NCBI RefSeq assembly: GCF_010667575.1
Contig: NZ_JAABNT010000002.1
Coordinates: 1 to 64,000 of the forward strand
DNA length: 64,000 bases
Direction of reading: 5' to 3'
Source of the DNA: Sulfitobacter sediminilitoris
Lineage (GTDB): Bacteria > Pseudomonadota > Alphaproteobacteria > Rhodobacterales > Rhodobacteraceae
Positions 54,755 through 62,573 of the stretch are shown piece after piece. The first letter of the stretch is position 1; every line of letters begins with the position of its first letter. A program made the position numbers and the translations under genes. The notes below the pieces were generated by a model, which searched no databases, was not told the DNA's origin, and worked only from the letters and a program-made list of their open reading frames with translations.

Positions 54755-55645
54755 ATGTACACAATTGCCGCCCTTTATCACTTCACCCGTTTCGAAGATC
54801 CTGCCGCGCTCAAACCTGCGCTGCTGGACCTGTGCGTGTCACAGGATGTGAAAGGAACGCTTCTGCTGGCGCAGGAAGGGGTGAACGGAACCATCGCAGG
54901 CCCGCGTGCCGGGATCGACGCAGTGATTGCGCATTTGCGCGGCTTGCCGGGATGCAAAGAGCTTGAGTGGAAAGAGGCCACGTCAGAGACACCGCCGTTC
55001 CCGCGCATGAAAGTGCGGATCAAGCGCGAGATCGTGACGATGGGCCAGCCCGATGTGGATCCGGCAAGCAAGGTCGGCAATTATGTGGATCCCGCCGATT
55101 GGAATGAGCTGATCACAAGCCCTGATGTGGCGGTGATTGACACGCGCAACGATTACGAGGTTGCGATTGGTACCTTCGAGGGGGCGATTGACCCCGAAAC
55201 CAAAAGTTTTGGTGAATTCCCAGCTTGGTGGGAAAAGAACAAGGATCGTTTTCACAACAAGCGGATTGCGATGTTTTGCACCGGTGGCATCCGCTGCGAG
55301 AAATCGACGAACTACCTGCTGGGTCAGGGCGTCGAGGATGTCTATCACCTTAAAGGTGGTATTCTGAAATACCTCGAGGAAGTGCCCGAGGAAGAAAGCA
55401 CATGGGACGGTGACTGCTTTGTCTTTGATGCCCGCGTGAGCGTGGGCCACGGGCTGAAAGAAGGGCCGCACCTGCTGTGCCACGGCTGCCGTCAGCCGAT
55501 CCTGCCCCAAGACACGCACCGGCCCGAATACGAGCATGGCGTCAGCTGTCACAACTGCTTTGACAAGACGTCCGATTGGGACAAGGAACGCTTTCGCGAG
55601 CGGCAAAAGCAGATCAAGCTGGCTGAGGCGCGGGGACAGGGATAG
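54755..55645 (+). CDS. trhO: tRNA uridine-5-hydroxylase TrhO (rhodanese domain)
   Basis: The ATG at 54755 gives 296 residues. An N-terminal acylphosphatase-like part (GTLLLAQEGVNGTIAG) is followed by a rhodanese domain with VIDTRNDYEV and the active-site loop MFCTGGIRCEKS, and a Cys-rich C-terminal part (LCHGCRQPI and VSCHNCFDK). TrhO forms 5-hydroxyuridine at position 34 of some tRNAs using O2. The 3' end overlaps the convergent MFS gene by 32 nt. Confidence 0.95.
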   Translation: MYTIAALYHFTRFEDPAALKPALLDLCVSQDVKGTLLLAQEGVNGTIAGPRAGIDAVIAHLRGLPGCKELEWKEATSETPPFPRMKVRIKREIVTMGQPDVDPASKVGNYVDPADWNELITSPDVAVIDTRNDYEVAIGTFEGAIDPETKSFGEFPAWWEKNKDRFHNKRIAMFCTGGIRCEKSTNYLLGQGVEDVYHLKGGILKYLEEVPEEESTWDGDCFVFDARVSVGHGLKEGPHLLCHGCRQPILPQDTHRPEYEHGVSCHNCFDKTSDWDKERFRERQKQIKLAEARGQG

Positions 55646-56873
55646 CGGGTTTGCGTGGCCTGCTGCGCAGCAAAAGCCAAAGCATGATGGCGACGTTCAC
55701 CCCGTTCCAGACGATCCCGTTGATAAACGCCCATTGGTAACTGCCGGTCCAGTCATAGATCTGACCAGAGACCCAGCCGCCCAGCGCCATGCCCATGATC
55801 GTTGCCATCATCACAAATCCGACGCGCGCGCCCGCCTCCTTGGCGGGCATGTATTCGCGGACAATCAGCGCGTAGCTGGGGACAATGCCGCCCTGGCTTA
55901 ATCCAAAGACAAGACTGACAACGTAGAGCGAGACGAGACCGCCCGCCGGCAGATACAGAAACAGCGCCAGTCCCTGAAGCGTGGATCCGATGAGCAACGT
56001 GCGAACGCCACCCAGCCGATCCGCCAGGAGGCCCGACACGATGCGAGAGCCAACGCCACCCAAAAGCATCAGCGACAACATCTCGGCCCCAACAGCGGGG
56101 CCAAAGCCCAGATCGACGCAAAGTGCCACGATGTGAACCTGTGGCATCGACATGGCAATGCAACAACAGATACCTGCAAACCCCAGCAAAATGGCGAGTG
56201 TGCGCGGGCTGAGACCAGCTGACTGTGCGTTGAGGCTGGAGGCCGCGTGGGCGCTGGCATGAGTCTCTGAGGAAACCTGTCGCCGGAGCAGCAGGGCAAG
56301 CGGTATAATACCGAAAAAGGTGACAACAGCCATCACGGTGTAGACCGCCCGCCAGCCGCTGTCCTGCATGACACCCGCAAGGACCATCGGCCAGATCGCT
56401 CCAGAAAGGTAATTGCCACTGGCCACCAGCGCGACGGCGATGCCGCGCCTGCGGACGAACCAGTGCGAGATGTCGGCTATCAGAGGACCGAAACCAACGG
56501 CTGAGGCAAACCCGATGAGAAGTTGCGCAAAAGACAGCATGGCGATGGATTGAGAAAGGATCGCCAGGATCAGACCGCCAACAATACCGAGTGCGGCAAG
56601 GATGAGCGAGACAGTCACGCCGAACCGATCCAGCGCCCGGCCCAGTGCAAAATTGCCCAAGGCGAACCCGATCATGTTCAGCGTGTACGGAAGAGACGCA
56701 TCCGCACGACTGGTCCCGAATTCAGCCTGGACGGCAGGCAGGATCACGATAATCGCCCACATGCCCGCATTGGCAATAATCGCCACCAGCATCGTGACGA
56801 CAAGTCGAAACCACGAATAGCGGCTGTCTGTTTCGGCAATCTGGGTCAAACAGGATCCTTCCACCTGCATCAA
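55614..56873 (-). CDS. MFS transporter (oxalate/formate antiporter-like)
   Basis: The 419-residue protein has 12 predicted helices. ALGNFALGRALDRFGVTVSL is the loop 2-3 motif and GFGPLIADISHWFVRRRGIAVALVASGNYLSGAIWP is typical of the YhjX/monocarboxylate type. The substrate is unknown. ATG 56873 and 56870 are adjacent candidates. It is divergent from the flagellar motB gene. Confidence 0.85.
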   Translation of the reverse strand: MMQVEGSCLTQIAETDSRYSWFRLVVTMLVAIIANAGMWAIIVILPAVQAEFGTSRADASLPYTLNMIGFALGNFALGRALDRFGVTVSLILAALGIVGGLILAILSQSIAMLSFAQLLIGFASAVGFGPLIADISHWFVRRRGIAVALVASGNYLSGAIWPMVLAGVMQDSGWRAVYTVMAVVTFFGIIPLALLLRRQVSSETHASAHAASSLNAQSAGLSPRTLAILLGFAGICCCIAMSMPQVHIVALCVDLGFGPAVGAEMLSLMLLGGVGSRIVSGLLADRLGGVRTLLIGSTLQGLALFLYLPAGGLVSLYVVSLVFGLSQGGIVPSYALIVREYMPAKEAGARVGFVMMATIMGMALGGWVSGQIYDWTGSYQWAFINGIVWNGVNVAIMLWLLLRSRPRKPAIPVPAPQPA

Positions 56874-56929
56874 GCGTCAAACCAGAATTATGCGCAAGGG
56901 CTGAGGTGAAATGCGCACAATTGAAGCTG

Positions 56930-56944
56930 TTAAGCTCGCGTTAG
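56930..56944. promoter_or_regulatory. candidate CtrA box upstream of motB
   Basis: TTAA-N7-TTAG (56930-56944) is one base from the CtrA consensus TTAA-N7-TTAA and lies about 45 nt before the motB ATG. CtrA controls flagellar genes in Rhodobacterales. A near-identical box precedes flgE. Confidence 0.5.
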
Positions 56945-56989
56945 GGGCCACCTTGCTAGCACAGCCTTGGGTGAATAGAGGTGGTGGAG

Positions 56990-57831
56990 ATGGGTGCGCA
57001 AGCAAATGCGGCGCCAGTCATCATCAAGAAGAAAAAGGTCGTTGGCGGCGGTGGGCATCATGGCGGTGCCTGGAAGGTTGCCTACGCGGATTTCGTGACC
57101 GCGATGATGGCTTTTTTCATGTTGATGTGGCTGCTGAATGCGACGACAGAACAGCAACGCAAGGGTATTGCGGATTATTTTTCGCCGACGATTCCGATCA
57201 ATCGGGTGTCTGGCGGCGGGAATGGTGCGTTTGGCGGAGAAAGCATATTCTCCGAGACCACACTGCCACAGACAGGGACCGGCGGCACCGATACACGGAT
57301 TTCCCCGAAGTGAGTGCGCGTGGAAATACCGGCACCGAGATGGACGACGACGCAGACCAGGAAGCCTTTGAGACGCTCGAGAAAATGCTGGTCGGGCAAG
57401 GCGGCGAGACCATGGTCATGGAAAACGCGCTGCGGCATATCGTGACCCGGATCACTGATGAAGGCTTGGTGATCGAACTTTTTGAACTTGAGGGAATTCC
57501 TCTGTTCGAGGATGGCACTGACACGCCAACGCAGCTTTTGCGGGATTTGTCGGCACTTATCTCTTCAACGGCCAAGGCCGTTACGAACGGCATAGCGATT
57601 GGCGGGCATGTCCGCGCGACACCCATTGTATTGGCCAACAGTCCGGTCTGGGATCAATCAGCCAATCGCGCGGCAAAAATGCGTGAGCTGCTCGAAGATT
57701 CCGGCATCGCACCCGCCCGTATCAAAAGAGTCACCGGACATGCTGATCGCACTCCGGTTCTGCAGGACACGATGGCGCGACGTAACAATCGCATCGAAGT
57801 GGTGTTGTTGCGGAAAACTGACCGCAAATAG
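56990..57831 (+). pseudogene. motB: flagellar motor protein MotB, frameshifted
   Basis: The first part, from ATG 56990, has GGAWKVAYADFVTAMMAFFMLMWLLNAT, the single MotB helix with the proton-binding Asp. It stops at 57311-57313 after DTRISPK. The rest continues in another frame from about 57303 (EVSARGNTGTEMDDDADQ) to 57831 and carries the OmpA-like peptidoglycan-binding domain ending in RVTGHADRTPVLQDTMARRNNRIEVVLL. One extra C in the CCCC run at 57303-57306 would restore a single frame. Without that, the product lacks the OmpA-like domain. Confidence 0.85.
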
Positions 57832-57870
57832 GCTGGTTACGGCCACGGCAAATACCCGGCATTTTATCTG

Positions 57871-57885
57871 TTAGCCCGGAATTAA
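57871..57885. promoter_or_regulatory. candidate CtrA box upstream of flgE
   Basis: TTAG-N7-TTAA (57871-57885) is one base from TTAA-N7-TTAA and sits 61 nt before the flgE ATG. Having similar sites in front of both motB and flgE strengthens the case for CtrA control. Confidence 0.5.
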
Positions 57886-58097
57886 GCCGGCGTCGTCTAT
57901 GTGTCCGGTGAACAACACTGACACAGCAGAAAGGCGTTTCTGACTTATGACCATTTCTTCTTCGCTCAATGCCGGGGTGGCGGGCCTTCAGGCGAATGCA
58001 ACCCGATTGGCTTCGATTTCGGACAACATCGCAAATTCGTCGACCTTCGGGTACAAGCGGGTCGAAACGGATTTCCATTCCATCGTGATCGCCTCCC

Positions 58098-58106
58098 GGG
58101 GGGGGG
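58098..58106 (+). repeat. nine-G tract inside flgE at the frameshift point
   Basis: A homopolymer of nine G lies near codon 51 of flgE. Eight G would give the continuous hook protein (RGGTYSAGGVRALTER), so the tract could vary in length by slippage. A sequencing or assembly error in the tract is equally possible. Confidence 0.8.
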
Positions 58107-59206
58107 ACATATTCGGCAGGCGGCGTGCGCGCCTTGACAGAGCGCCTGATTGATGAGCGAGGCTACCTTGTCTCAACCAACAATGCCACGGATCTTGCTG
58201 TACGTGGACGCGGGTTTCTACCTGTGACGCAAGCCACGGACGTTGAGGTTGCCAATGGCGAGGCAAGCATGTTCCTGACCACCACAGGATCTTTCCGGAC
58301 CGATTCCGAAGGGTATTTGAGGTCCAACTCCGGTCTGGTGCTACTGGGGTGGCCTGCGTTGCCAGATGGCACCATACCCAGCTTTCCGCGCGACACATCC
58401 GATGGGCTTGAGCCTGTCCAGATCAATGTCAATCAATTCTCAGGAGAACCGACAACGCGCATGACGCTTGGCGTGAACCTGCCCGCAACCGAAACAGATG
58501 CGGGTTCGGACGGTGATATCTCGGAGTTGTCGGTGGAGTATTACGATAACCTGGGCACGTCTGAGAATATTAACATCACTTTCTCGCCCGATGTGCCTGC
58601 AACGGGGTCCTCCAATACTTGGACTATGACCCTGCGCGACTCGGTCGACCCTACGGTGACGATCGGGGAATACACCCTGGAATTTGCGGATGACCGTACT
58701 GCGGGCGGGACGCTTTTGTCCGTAACATCTGTCGGTCCGACAGGTGGTGCCTATGATCCATTGACCGGCACGATCATCGTGGATGTGGCTGGCGGCCCAA
58801 TGGAGATCGATATCGGTCAACTTGGTGAGAGCGACGGGATTACCCAACTTTCTGACAATTTCGCACCGATCTCGATTTCAAAAGACGGTTCACCTGTCGG
58901 GAACATGACCAGCGTCGAAGTGGACCCAAATGGGTTTGTCTTTGCCTATTTCGACACGGGAATCACACGGGTGATTTACCAGGTGCCGCTGGTCGATCTG
59001 CCATACCCAAACGGCATGGTCGCGCTTGATCAGCAGACCTATCAGCCGTCGCTCGATAGCGGGTCGTTTTTCCTTTGGGATGCCAGTGACGGTCCGACCG
59101 GAGATATCCTGTCTTTCGCATTGGAGGAATCCAACACCGATGTAGCGGGTGAGCTGACGTCGATGATCCAGACACAGCGCGCCTATAGCTCGAACGCGAA
59201 GGTCAT

Positions 59207-59347
59207 TCAGACCGTGGAATTATCCTTGGCACTGGCGACCGATTTACCGGTCGAAATTGCGTTTTGCGTCCCGGCCAGGCTGGCATTGATGGATTTCAGA
59301 GTCTGCAGCGCAACCATTGCGCTGTTGTTGGTAAGAATGCTCGACAT
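59207..59347 (-). pseudogene. fliC: flagellin gene remnant, N-terminal 46 residues only
   Basis: On the minus strand the ATG at 59347, with AAGGA 8 nt upstream, encodes MSSILTNNSAMVALQTLKSI, then a stretch through STGKSVASAKDNS: the conserved flagellin N-terminus (D0 region). It stops at a TGA formed by flgE sequence, right after KDNSTV, where flagellins continue with AVWAISK. The remaining 85% of the gene is absent. The 5' leader up to flgN is still present. Confidence 0.88.
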
Positions 59348-59554
59348 AAGCATGTTCCTTCAGTCATTGACGCTTTGCGTCCGTTATGTCCCACCCCCCA
59401 CGGGGCTGGACGACATGTCGTTCTGACCAATGCATGCGCTTTTGATGTAAGACGATGCGCCACCCGACCTCGGATGCGGCACCACTGATGCCTCTGCCGG
59501 GTTAACGAATGCTGAACACCTGTACGTGGATTCTTAAGATTTTTAATTAAAGAC

Positions 59555-59914
59555 TCATGCCCGCCGTTCGACAGAGCTATCAGGCAATGCAACGATGTCG
59601 TGTTTCTTGCCGTCTGCCCCATAGGTCTCAAGGGCGCCTTTCACCTCTCGCAGTTTTGCAAGCCGGGATGCGACCGCGCGAATACCTTCTAGCGCCCCGT
59701 CCATCAGCAGCTGATTCCGACGTACTTTGCTGTCCAGCATTTGCATTGCTGAAAGGTCGGATTGCGGTGTGCTGTTCATCGCCTCAATCAACGCTTCCTT
59801 GGAAACAAGGAGCTCATTGAGCTTTTCAAGATCTCCCTTCAAAAGCGCTTCGCGCTCTGTATCCAGCAGATCACTCAGTTCAATCACCGGTCCGTTCCCA
59901 GTCTTAGCCGTCAT
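59555..59914 (-). CDS. flgN: FlgN-like flagellar export chaperone
   Basis: The 119-residue protein is helical: LSDLLDTEREALLKGDLEKLNELLVSKEALIEAM, then SKVRRNQLLMDGALEGIRAVASRLAKL, in the style of FlgN, the chaperone for hook-associated proteins FlgK and FlgL. It overlaps the flgJ-like stop by 11 nt and lies just upstream of the flagellin remnant. The frame is intact although its substrates' genes are not in the window. Confidence 0.78.
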   Translation of the reverse strand: MTAKTGNGPVIELSDLLDTEREALLKGDLEKLNELLVSKEALIEAMNSTPQSDLSAMQMLDSKVRRNQLLMDGALEGIRAVASRLAKLREVKGALETYGADGKKHDIVALPDSSVERRA

Positions 59915-60224
59915 TGTCTCGCTCCTTCAGTGCTTCAAAAATCGATTCGCTCAACCCGATACCCCCTGCCCGGACCATTGCCATTGCGTGTTCCTCTACC
60001 AGGAACGAAGAAAACTGGTCTTCTCCCGGGCCACCACCAAACCCCTCGCGCGACGAGCCAAGTCCAGCTCCTTTCAGCATTTCCGCAAGAAAACTTGCCT
60101 CAAGTTTCTGAGCCGCTTGGCGAAGGGACTGATCAAGAGAATTGCTGGTATGAGCCGGTAGTGCAGGTCGTACGGTATCCACGGGCTGGGTCCTTAAATT
60201 GCGGTCTATTTTCCGCAACATGCG
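59904..60224 (-). CDS. flgJ: FlgJ-like rod-binding protein (no muramidase domain)
   Basis: With the ATG at 60224 the product has 106 residues; the frame is open further, but the extra N-terminus has no family feature. LRQAAQKLEASFLAEMLKGAGLG, GGPGEDQFSSFL and GGIGLSESIFEAL match the N-terminal rod-binding domain of FlgJ, which caps or scaffolds rod assembly. There is no C-terminal peptidoglycan hydrolase domain, as is usual in alphaproteobacteria. Divergent from fliK. Confidence 0.85.
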   Translation of the reverse strand, partial: RMLRKIDRNLRTQPVDTVRPALPAHTSNSLDQSLRQAAQKLEASFLAEMLKGAGLGSSREGFGGGPGEDQFSSFLVEEHAMAMVRAGGIGLSESIFEALKERDNDG

Positions 60225-60299
60225 CCACGCCTGGTAAACAACCGGTAACGACCTTCGCAGATAAAGAAGCCCAACGGAGAAGAAATCCCGGAGGTTTTC

Positions 60300-61898
60300 G
60301 TGCATCAAATCATGTCGGGCAGCTTGCTACCGCTGGCTCCCGAAGTGGCGGCCCAGCCTATTGCGCCGCAACAGAATACAACACCGGAAGGTGCAGTATC
60401 TCCGAAAGTTTTGGAAAACGCCCAAAGTTTTGCAGCGCTTTTTGCCGAAGAGCATTCACAGGGCGAGGGAGCGACGACCCTGTCGCCTGATTTGACTGCC
60501 GTCAAATCTGACGCGCCTGTTTCAATCACCGCCCCGGACGCCGTTGAGGGTAGCCTAGAAGCAGACCAGATAGACGTCAGGCATGCGACGGGTAGCAAGT
60601 TGTCTCTGGAAAATTCAGAAGACGTTGATACAGCACGTTCTGGCCCGAATGCTACCAGCTCCAAAAATATTGCCAATGGAAACGATGAAATTGCGGTCGG
60701 TCGCTCTGATGATCAGGTACGTTTCACTGAAGCAGGGCGCGTCCCGATCCAGCCAGCGACCCGTGCGGTGGATCTTTAACAGAAAGCGCCAAAATCTACA
60801 GATATGCAGACGGACATGGCAGGCGTCGCACCATTGAAGAAGGCGTCAGGCGCAACAACGTCCGCGCAGACTTCCGTTCAAGCTTTGCATTTGGATCAAA
60901 CCGTCCACAACTCAAAGGCTCTTTCCAACGATAAGATAGCGAAATCTTCCTTTGGTAGGCCGGGAAAAACTGATGGCGTTGAGACCACCCAGACGCGCAC
61001 CTCTGAGGTGGGGAGTTCGCAGTTGCAGAAAACAACATCTTCATTTGCAGCCAAAACTCAATCGCACGGCAATCAGATATCATTAGTAGCTTAGGATGCA
61101 CCGGCTGATCCGAAGCATGTCATTCTTCAAAGACACATCAGCACTCCACAATCTGGCTTTAATCCAGACGTCATGCTAAATAGCCCCCAAGCCCCTGGCA
61201 ACGATGAAATTCTCATTCCCACTCTTCCCGGGCAGCGATCCAAACGTCGTGCTGAAATCAGACGCAGTGTTGATCCTGTCTCTACAACCGCAACGCTCCC
61301 GCTAAAGCCTAACAATCCCGGACAAGCAACGCCCAACGCTCCTTCAGGTTTCTCGATGCACGTCCTGCCGGAGCATCGCAGAAATGTGTTCTTTACCACT
61401 CGTTCAGGCGATCAGATCGATCCACACGCATCTGTTCGAACCGATTCTCAAACAACAACCTCACTGCCAGTCAATAACACCATACCCTCTCGTATGGATT
61501 TGCCTCAGATGATTTCGAGGCAGATCGCAGAGGCGCTTTACCATATGCCAGCACGGCCGGTGGAAATCACGCTCAGCCCGGAGGAACAGGGACGGGTACG
61601 ATTGGCTCTTTCATCGTCAGAAGCTGGGATTGTGGTCATTGTGCTGGCTGAACGGAGCGAAACAATTGATCTGATGCGGCGCCACATCAATAGTCTTGAA
61701 GCGGCATTTCAGGCCATTGGCTACAGCGATATTTCCTTCTCTTTCTCAGGGGGCGGGGATGCAGAAACGGAAAGCAGGGCTGAGCAAACAGACACTTCTC
61801 CGTCCAAACGTTTGAATGGAGCGGAACACGCCGACCCACAAGCCTCTCAGATCAGATTAGCACCCGGCGTCACAGCTGGGCTCGACATCCGCCTTTGA
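60300..61898 (+). pseudogene. fliK: flagellar hook-length control protein FliK with two in-frame stops
   Basis: GTG at 60300 (GGAGG 5 nt upstream) opens a frame that would encode about 532 codons to 61898. It is broken by TAA at 60777-60779 and TAG at 61092-61094, all in the same frame, so these are nonsense changes rather than indels. The C-terminal part from 61173 has the FliK domain: RPVEITLSPEEQGRVRLALSS and MRRHINSLEAAFQAIGYSDISFSFSGG. The N-terminal and middle parts are Ser/Thr/Gln-rich, as in other FliK proteins. Confidence 0.85.
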
Positions 61899-61910: not shown

Positions 61911-62573
61911 ATGGACATCAACTCCCCCACCATGGCGCCGTCAGCCCCATCGGCAGCAACCGCGCCACAGGCCAACGCCGTACTCTCATCGGATTTTGAG
62001 ACATTCTTAAAAATGCTCACTGCCCAAGCGCGATATCACGATCCATTGGAACCGATCGATTCTTCCGAATACGCTGCGCAGCTTGCGCAGTTCTCAATGG
62101 TGGAACAGCAGGTCATGTCGAACGATCTGTTGGCCTCGCTCGCTGCGCAGCTAGGCTCTGGAAATATGGCGCAAACGGCAAGCTGGATCGGGATGGAAGC
62201 CCTGACAACAGCACCCACCTACTTTGATGGAACACCCCTGCGCATCACACCGAACCCTGCTGCCATTTCTGATGAGGTCTTTCTGATTGTCCGTGACGAA
62301 ACCGGGCAAGAGGTCCAGCGTGTCGCACTTCCCGTCTCGGCAGAGCCCTTTGAATGGGCAGGTGTGGCAAAGGATGGCGGCCCGTTCGAAAACGGTATCT
62401 ACAGCTTTGACATCGAAAGCCGCGCAAACGGAGAAGTCATTCTATCGGAACCTGCTGAAACCTACGGACGGATCACCAAAACACGCCTTCAAGACGGTGA
62501 AGCGATTCTGATCCTTGAGGGTGGATCTGCAATTCTTGCGGCTGGCGTCACCGGGCTTCGCGAACCAGTCTGA
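61911..62573 (+). CDS. flgD: flagellar hook capping protein FlgD
   Basis: The 220-residue protein has SDFETFLKMLTAQARYHDPLEPIDSSEYAAQLAQFSMVEQQV, the FlgD N-terminal signature, followed by a FLG-Ig-like and Tudor-like part with FEWAGVAKDGGPFENGIYSF. It builds the hook cap. The frame is intact, 12 nt after fliK. With hook and flagellin genes broken it is probably not functional in assembly. Confidence 0.92.
   Translation: MDINSPTMAPSAPSAATAPQANAVLSSDFETFLKMLTAQARYHDPLEPIDSSEYAAQLAQFSMVEQQVMSNDLLASLAAQLGSGNMAQTASWIGMEALTTAPTYFDGTPLRITPNPAAISDEVFLIVRDETGQEVQRVALPVSAEPFEWAGVAKDGGPFENGIYSFDIESRANGEVILSEPAETYGRITKTRLQDGEAILILEGGSAILAAGVTGLREPV

Follow-up and report, generated by a model that had tools for sequence, protein, structure and literature searches.

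We analysed a window of 64,000 nucleotides from Sulfitobacter sediminilitoris (contig NZ_JAABNT010000002.1, positions 1 to 64,000 of the forward strand), in which the following flagellar features lie side by side.

56981..57831, plus strand: remnant of motB, left end of the old cluster (MotB_plug, 73 bits; two tblastn pieces)
57947..59216, plus strand: flgE without its last 12 codons (Flg_bb_rod, FlgE_D2 and Flg_bbr_C; two tblastn pieces)
59215..59217, no strand: deletion junction of type 1, base 59216 from either gene
59217..59347, minus strand: flagellin codons 1-44, 3' part gone (Flagellin_N 1-40)
59348..59554, no strand: flagellin leader and spacer towards flgN, kept in both types of scar
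59555..59914, minus strand: flgN, open reading frame (PF05130, 29.6 bits, slightly below cut-off)
59904..60308, minus strand: gene for a FlgJ-like rod-binding protein, open reading frame (PF10135, 36 bits)
60300..61898, plus strand: fliK, frame broken by stops near 60779 and 61094 (Flg_hook, 42 bits in 61173-61898)
61911..62573, plus strand: flgD, right end of the old cluster, open reading frame (FlgD and FlgD_ig)

At positions 59199-59219 the flgE frame K-V-I-Q-T-V passes straight into the reverse-complemented 5' end of a flagellin gene. The flgE side of the join reads AAG GTC ATT CAG ACC GT, with its last base at 59215, and the flagellin side reads GA ATT ATC C, starting at 59217, while base 59216 could derive from either gene. 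The flagellin fragment (minus strand, 59347-59217; MSSILTNNSAMVALQTLKSINASLAGTQNAISTGKSVASAKDNS) corresponds to the N-terminus (44 codons), and the 3' parts of both flgE and flagellin are absent at the join. Pfam recognised the FlgE C-terminal and D2 domains within 58125-59426, as well as positions 1-40 of Flagellin_N in 59347-59216, the latter with 25.5 bits, just below the cut-off of 26.6; this fragment was recovered in another search with an E-value of 6e-5, likewise below the cut-off. The MotB plug domain was found to the left of the fusion, and FlgN (29.6 bits for a cut-off of 30.5), Rod-binding, FliK and FlgD domains to the right. The frames were also found to be damaged in places that the initial annotation had not mentioned: motB is split over two frames (about 56981-57298 and 57310-57828), flgE occupies two frames due to a frameshift at a G run near 58100, and the fliK frame contains stops. 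An MFS transporter gene (55614-56873) is present between a rhodanese-like gene and motB, as in some relatives, intact or scarred; others are devoid of it.

Alignment of intact relatives to positions 56900-60320 of the window broke at query position 2318/2319, which is the fusion point, while the alignment of some other relatives ran unbroken across it. The fusion is therefore more than a chance resemblance. In G019, an intact relative in which the window aligned as two pieces meeting at this same position, the motB-flgE and flagellin-flgN parts are on the same strand, about 26 kb apart, and the interval between them contains at least 18 recognisable flagellar genes. To determine the content of the deleted segment, we scanned the 28 ORFs of one intact segment with Pfam, some of which may not be genes. 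This identified flgK, a flgL-like gene, flgI, fliP, fliN, fliF, fliL, motA, flhB, flgH, flgA, three rod-type genes, fliI, flbT, flaF, a DUF1217 gene and one weak match, while 9 of the 28 ORFs belonged to no Pfam family and none of the 28 was recognised as a recombinase. flhA likewise lies inside the deleted interval. The locus, which is present in a single copy in the genome, has motB and flgE at one end and flgN, flgJ, fliK and flgD at the other, and intact relatives carry the interior expected of a fla1-type cluster (the fla1 gene order is given in PMC12363192). It is thus a collapsed fla1-type flagellar cluster.

These results bear out what had been proposed from the window alone, namely a fusion of flgE to antisense flagellin, at the correct coordinates and with both genes truncated, caused by a deletion of the intervening genes; flgK, flgL, flaF and flbT had been named as missing, and flgK, a flgL-like gene, flaF and flbT are indeed in the G019 interval. 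The suggestion that these genes be sought elsewhere in the genome was answered in part: a flgK and a flgL-like gene were found on contig C2, as members of another flagellar set. This second, different set comprises FlgE, FlgK, a FlgL-like protein, flagellins, FliI, FliF, FliP, FliG and FlhA. Its FlhA, the only one of the genome, scored 808.6 bits, compared to 705-732 bits for the FlhA of intact fla1-type clusters. We used this gap in score to separate FlhA types, and by this measure the fla1 export gate has probably gone from the genome.

Other arrangements of the locus were also observed in Sulfitobacter. In one genome (G033:C9:2828950-2850088) the flgE and flagellin parts are on opposite strands, about 19 kb apart, a layout that suggests an inversion within the cluster. 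We also fetched seven regions from Sulfitobacter without the locus; in three of them (G462, G003 and G009; loci L301, L302 and L303) nothing of the flagellar locus is left, and about 30 bases separate the rhodanese-like gene from a FAD-dependent oxidoreductase gene.

We then determined how widespread the junction is. Alignment of the window to 36 Sulfitobacter genomes, its own included, was the only survey free of the bias of a junction pattern, as patterns anchored on a junction would miss other junctions. It disclosed two types of junction, and the alignment ran unbroken through the window's junction in G015, G035, G001 and G026. The window's junction, designated type 1, was found, identical to the base, in 22 genomes, each counted once. 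Its consensus consists of CAR ACN GT from flgE, one base from either gene, and flagellin-derived GA or GC. The fusion pattern matched 12 of 394 genomes of the family (393 genera, about one genome per genus), and its reversed control matched none of these 394. A pattern recognising both states matched 33 of 62 Sulfitobacter genomes, 7 of them fused and 26 intact, and 249 of the 394 family genomes; the matches listed for the family included no fusion in which Ala replaces the last Val. The 80 named loci that we retained comprised 7 fused and 5 unreadable ones, the remainder being intact. A private accident of one genome is ruled out by the presence of the junction in 22. The initial annotation had taken a shared fusion in relatives with working flagella as an argument against a deletion scar. 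Relatives do share the fusion, but none of the 22 genomes shows a fla1-type export gate: 14 contain no FlhA and 8 only an FlhA of a different score class.

In the type-2 junction, motB is retained through the final Ala of GGAWKVA (codon 34 in G019) and joined to the AT of the flagellin ATG. It was first observed in five Sulfitobacter genomes (G032, G008, G014, G007 and G022), in which the complement of AT is followed by the flagellin leader. A pattern for the motB cut matched 18 of the 394 family genomes, of which 17 were real and one (L251) was due to chance; the reversed control gave 2 matches. With G459 and other Sulfitobacter, type 2 was found in a total of 22 genomes, distinct from the 22 with type 1, and all 22 junctions read GCN and then AT, while the leader is not conserved between genera. 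The two types together account for 29 of the 394 sampled family genomes. In both, third bases at the cuts are variable, which indicates that there is no strict DNA motif.

Several observations bear on whether these scars arose independently. Trees were built from genes at the locus rather than from whole genomes. In a nucleotide tree of flgE (97 loci), 21 fused tips fell into 16 groups, corresponding to at least 12 origins after branches with less than 0.99 support had been collapsed. For type 2, trees of the neighbouring oxidoreductase and of flgD indicated 4-5 losses in Sulfitobacter. A scarred and an intact genome were paired with 0.99-1.00 support in four instances (G007/G499, G008/G019, G473/G020 and G001/G458). 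The neighbouring MFS gene could not serve as a marker of common descent of the scars, as it adjoins motB in intact genomes too.

The main rival to repeated deletion is that each scar arose once, long ago, and was kept across species as a presence/absence allele or transferred between them, recombination with intact alleles refreshing its flanks. Because gene transfer agents package only short DNA, they could spread a deletion but not a 26-kb cluster. This explanation, which we consider unlikely, would account for joins without sequence logic and for the existence of just two of them, each with its own pair of ends. It would also fit the flagellin fragments of the window, G015 and G482, which resemble each other and that of G199 more than those of their sampled intact sisters; these four genomes may share one event or an exchange. 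A further point in its favour is the metagenome-assembled genome G270, which holds a type-2 scar with a broken flgD (L285) together with a fla1-type FlhA on a separate contig (C93), although this combination would represent either a mixed population or contamination and the contig, of 6.7 kb, does not decide the matter.

On the other hand, when pairs of equal flgE distance were compared (22 fused and 31 intact genomes), fused fragments were no more alike among themselves than fused and intact ones. Over the 45 bases nearest the join the difference was -0.0004 (permutation share 0.48), and over the entire flagellin fragment +0.007 (permutation share 0.89); the test has little power, because the 45-base stretch is only weakly correlated with flgE distance (r 0.11). 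Raw identity over the 45 bases next to the join pointed in the opposite direction, as the intact sister came first, alone or jointly, in no more than 6 of 19 pairs when compared with the best other fused genome. Rare states shared with the intact sister were nevertheless found within about 5-7 bases of the join, which argues against old alleles: KDGS is common to the pair G448/G485, and ATAAGCTA to fused G007 and intact G499. The flagellin fragments of G473 and G020 are identical in protein sequence. Furthermore, the codons touching the join had not drifted in any of the 11 junctions found without a junction pattern, all of which kept codon-consistent bases on both sides, and the lack of conservation of the type-2 leader between genera would hinder recombination there. 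The distance-matched test, the rare states shared with sisters next to the join and the lack of codon drift lead us to favour a process of breaking and joining over the exchange of old alleles.

The remnants show little decay. The flgE frame stays open as far as the junction in 19 of 21 fused loci, and that of flgD is open in 41 of 43 scar loci, one of the other two being broken and one ended by a contig edge. The window, flgE of G327 and flgD of G270 are clearly decayed. Compared to the nearest intact copy (n = 21), non-synonymous change in flgE was within 0.02 in 12 cases, higher in 8 and lower in 1, and several of the 8 genomes with higher change have no close intact copy in the set. This relative-rate comparison was used alone, since synonymous sites were too saturated for pN/pS ratios; the length of the FlgJ ORF was also dropped as a measure of decay, as it was short in 3 of 18 intact loci too. 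FlhA was absent from 28 of 44 scar genomes, present outside the fla1 score range in 15 and of fla1 type in one (G270), while all 13 intact genomes included in the same searches had at least one. In the scar loci L122-L126, L143-L158 and L279-L295, flgN, flgJ, fliK and flgD are mostly open, despite the 28 of 44 genomes without FlhA. Open remnant genes mean either that the scars are young or that the genes still matter. Because fused copies are not more alike and the remnant genes are mostly undecayed, most scars appear to be young and locally made.

The mechanism put forward in the initial annotation, recombination between short direct repeats, would in its recurrent form involve the QTVD codons of flgE and antisense flagellin codons. 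It did not hold up well and appears improbable to us. The CAGACCGTGGA repeat of 11 bp needs a Thr codon in flagellin (S-T-V-W or A-T-V-W), and all 32 intact flagellins examined have Ala or Ser at this codon (these were the best matches to the G019 flagellin, with neighbours checked for part of them). The lost flagellin of the window is itself not visible and could have carried Thr, and CCAGA with up to three bases at the join does match in part. Comparison of 20-base contexts in seven intact clusters showed 8-11 matching bases for type 1, which is above average (top 0.4-11% of pairs); among the 9.5-11.7 million pairs of flank positions, 42,147 to 1.27 million did equally well or better. For type 2, only 5-6 of 20 bases matched, which is the average (six clusters; G028, in which the position was misplaced, was left out). 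The flanks of G010 contain 21 exact repeats of at least 11 bp, none of them at the join, and in all 22 type-1 genomes the T that precedes the join belongs to flgE.

Another feature of the cut sites was a partial inverted repeat at the joined type-1 sites (12-base arms, 67% complementary, top 0.11% of positions), which results from Ala-Lys codons in both genes. There was hardly any at the type-2 sites (38%, top 2%). By eye and post hoc, we also noted that all four kept ends (motB, flgE, flagellin start and flagellin codon 44), each read in its own direction, have AARG a few bases ahead of the cut, where it represents Lys codons or a ribosome-binding site.

Chance deletion of the ordinary kind does not account for a break point shared to the base by so many apparently separate losses. 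Taken together, we infer that the events were independent and mostly young, and that a cutting or recombining agent, rather than shared descent, fixes the junction. We therefore propose a recurrent, position-exact deletion of the fla1 cluster by a putative break-and-join process, to which we give a probability of about 0.5. In the window genome, the fla1 interior, a stretch of about 26 kb that starts 12 codons short of the flgE end and reaches codon 44 of flagellin, would have been deleted and the two ends of the cluster joined, after which the remnants would have begun to decay. Both types of junction would have arisen repeatedly, and mostly recently, in separate lineages of Rhodobacteraceae, the chromosome being broken and rejoined at fixed positions in conserved flagellar codons by a process that would tolerate third-base changes and would not be guided by homology between the ends. 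The probability is not set higher because no agent or circle was found, third bases vary and the inverted repeat is restricted to type 1. Reciprocal (circle) joints were absent from 305 short loci, which is a weak test, and the reciprocal joints of type 2 were absent from viral contigs as well.

Carriage of the scar by a phage or a plasmid was rejected for the viral contigs and plasmid records searched. The type-1 pattern had no match in viral contigs; the type-2 pattern had two, without flagellar match (one a long phage-like ORF, the other an ORF unrelated to motB), which we took as chance. Twenty plasmid records matched the flgE or the flagellin part, but none covered 80% of the query.

More speculatively, the Rhodobacteraceae, or a mobile element circulating among them, might own a site-specific system that cuts motB, flgE and flagellin codons regardless of third bases and excises the cluster. 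If so, flagella-less lineages would be produced at an appreciable rate in nature, and excision would perhaps be an exit from motility or a protection from phages that bind flagella.

An artefact of data preparation or assembly, removing the cluster at fixed coding positions, seems very improbable: codon-exact, homology-free ends in many unrelated assemblies would be unusual for nature, but the junction is present in two collections of different release, the window shows decay subsequent to the loss, and sporadic independent fla1 losses are described in PMC12363192. A single ancient deletion, inherited vertically with remnants selected for a new role, would explain why their ORFs are mostly open but is hardly credible, since fused tips are scattered among intact ones and intact clusters would need many regains.

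How do these scars compare with known systems? Sporadic, independent losses of the fla1-type cluster in Rhodobacterales have been reported (Tomasch et al. 2025, PMC12363192). They concern the same cluster, which is inherited vertically and was lost in scattered lineages; as observed here, some of these retain a flagellar set of another type. Break points are not described in the part of the paper available to us, exact recurrent junctions being the feature found in the present work, and we found no mention of a shared fla1 junction in it, or of a common scar in the literature that we searched. To us, exact recurrent junctions in fla1 loss are new.

Deletions between short direct repeats are similar in that two genes are truncated and joined with loss of the interior. 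They differ in that a perfect repeat is present at both ends in the intact state, while intact relatives have no repeat at the site of the join (the ancestor of the window is itself not visible) and the same join occurs in many lineages.

The sigK skin element and the nif elements are examples of programmed, site-specific excision. They resemble the present case in that tens of kilobases are removed exactly and repeatedly, leaving one and the same junction, which we observed here in events whose independence would follow from the gene trees. In contrast to those elements, no recombinase was recognised in the segment (28 ORFs of one intact segment), no clear shared core was apparent, no circle was seen, and the genes are destroyed rather than restored. 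Flagellar loss tends to be viewed as a matter of random decay, yet two base-exact junctions without useful homology recur across this family. They point either to a deletion hotspot or excision process of a new kind, or to alleles of the deletion that are very old and have passed between species.
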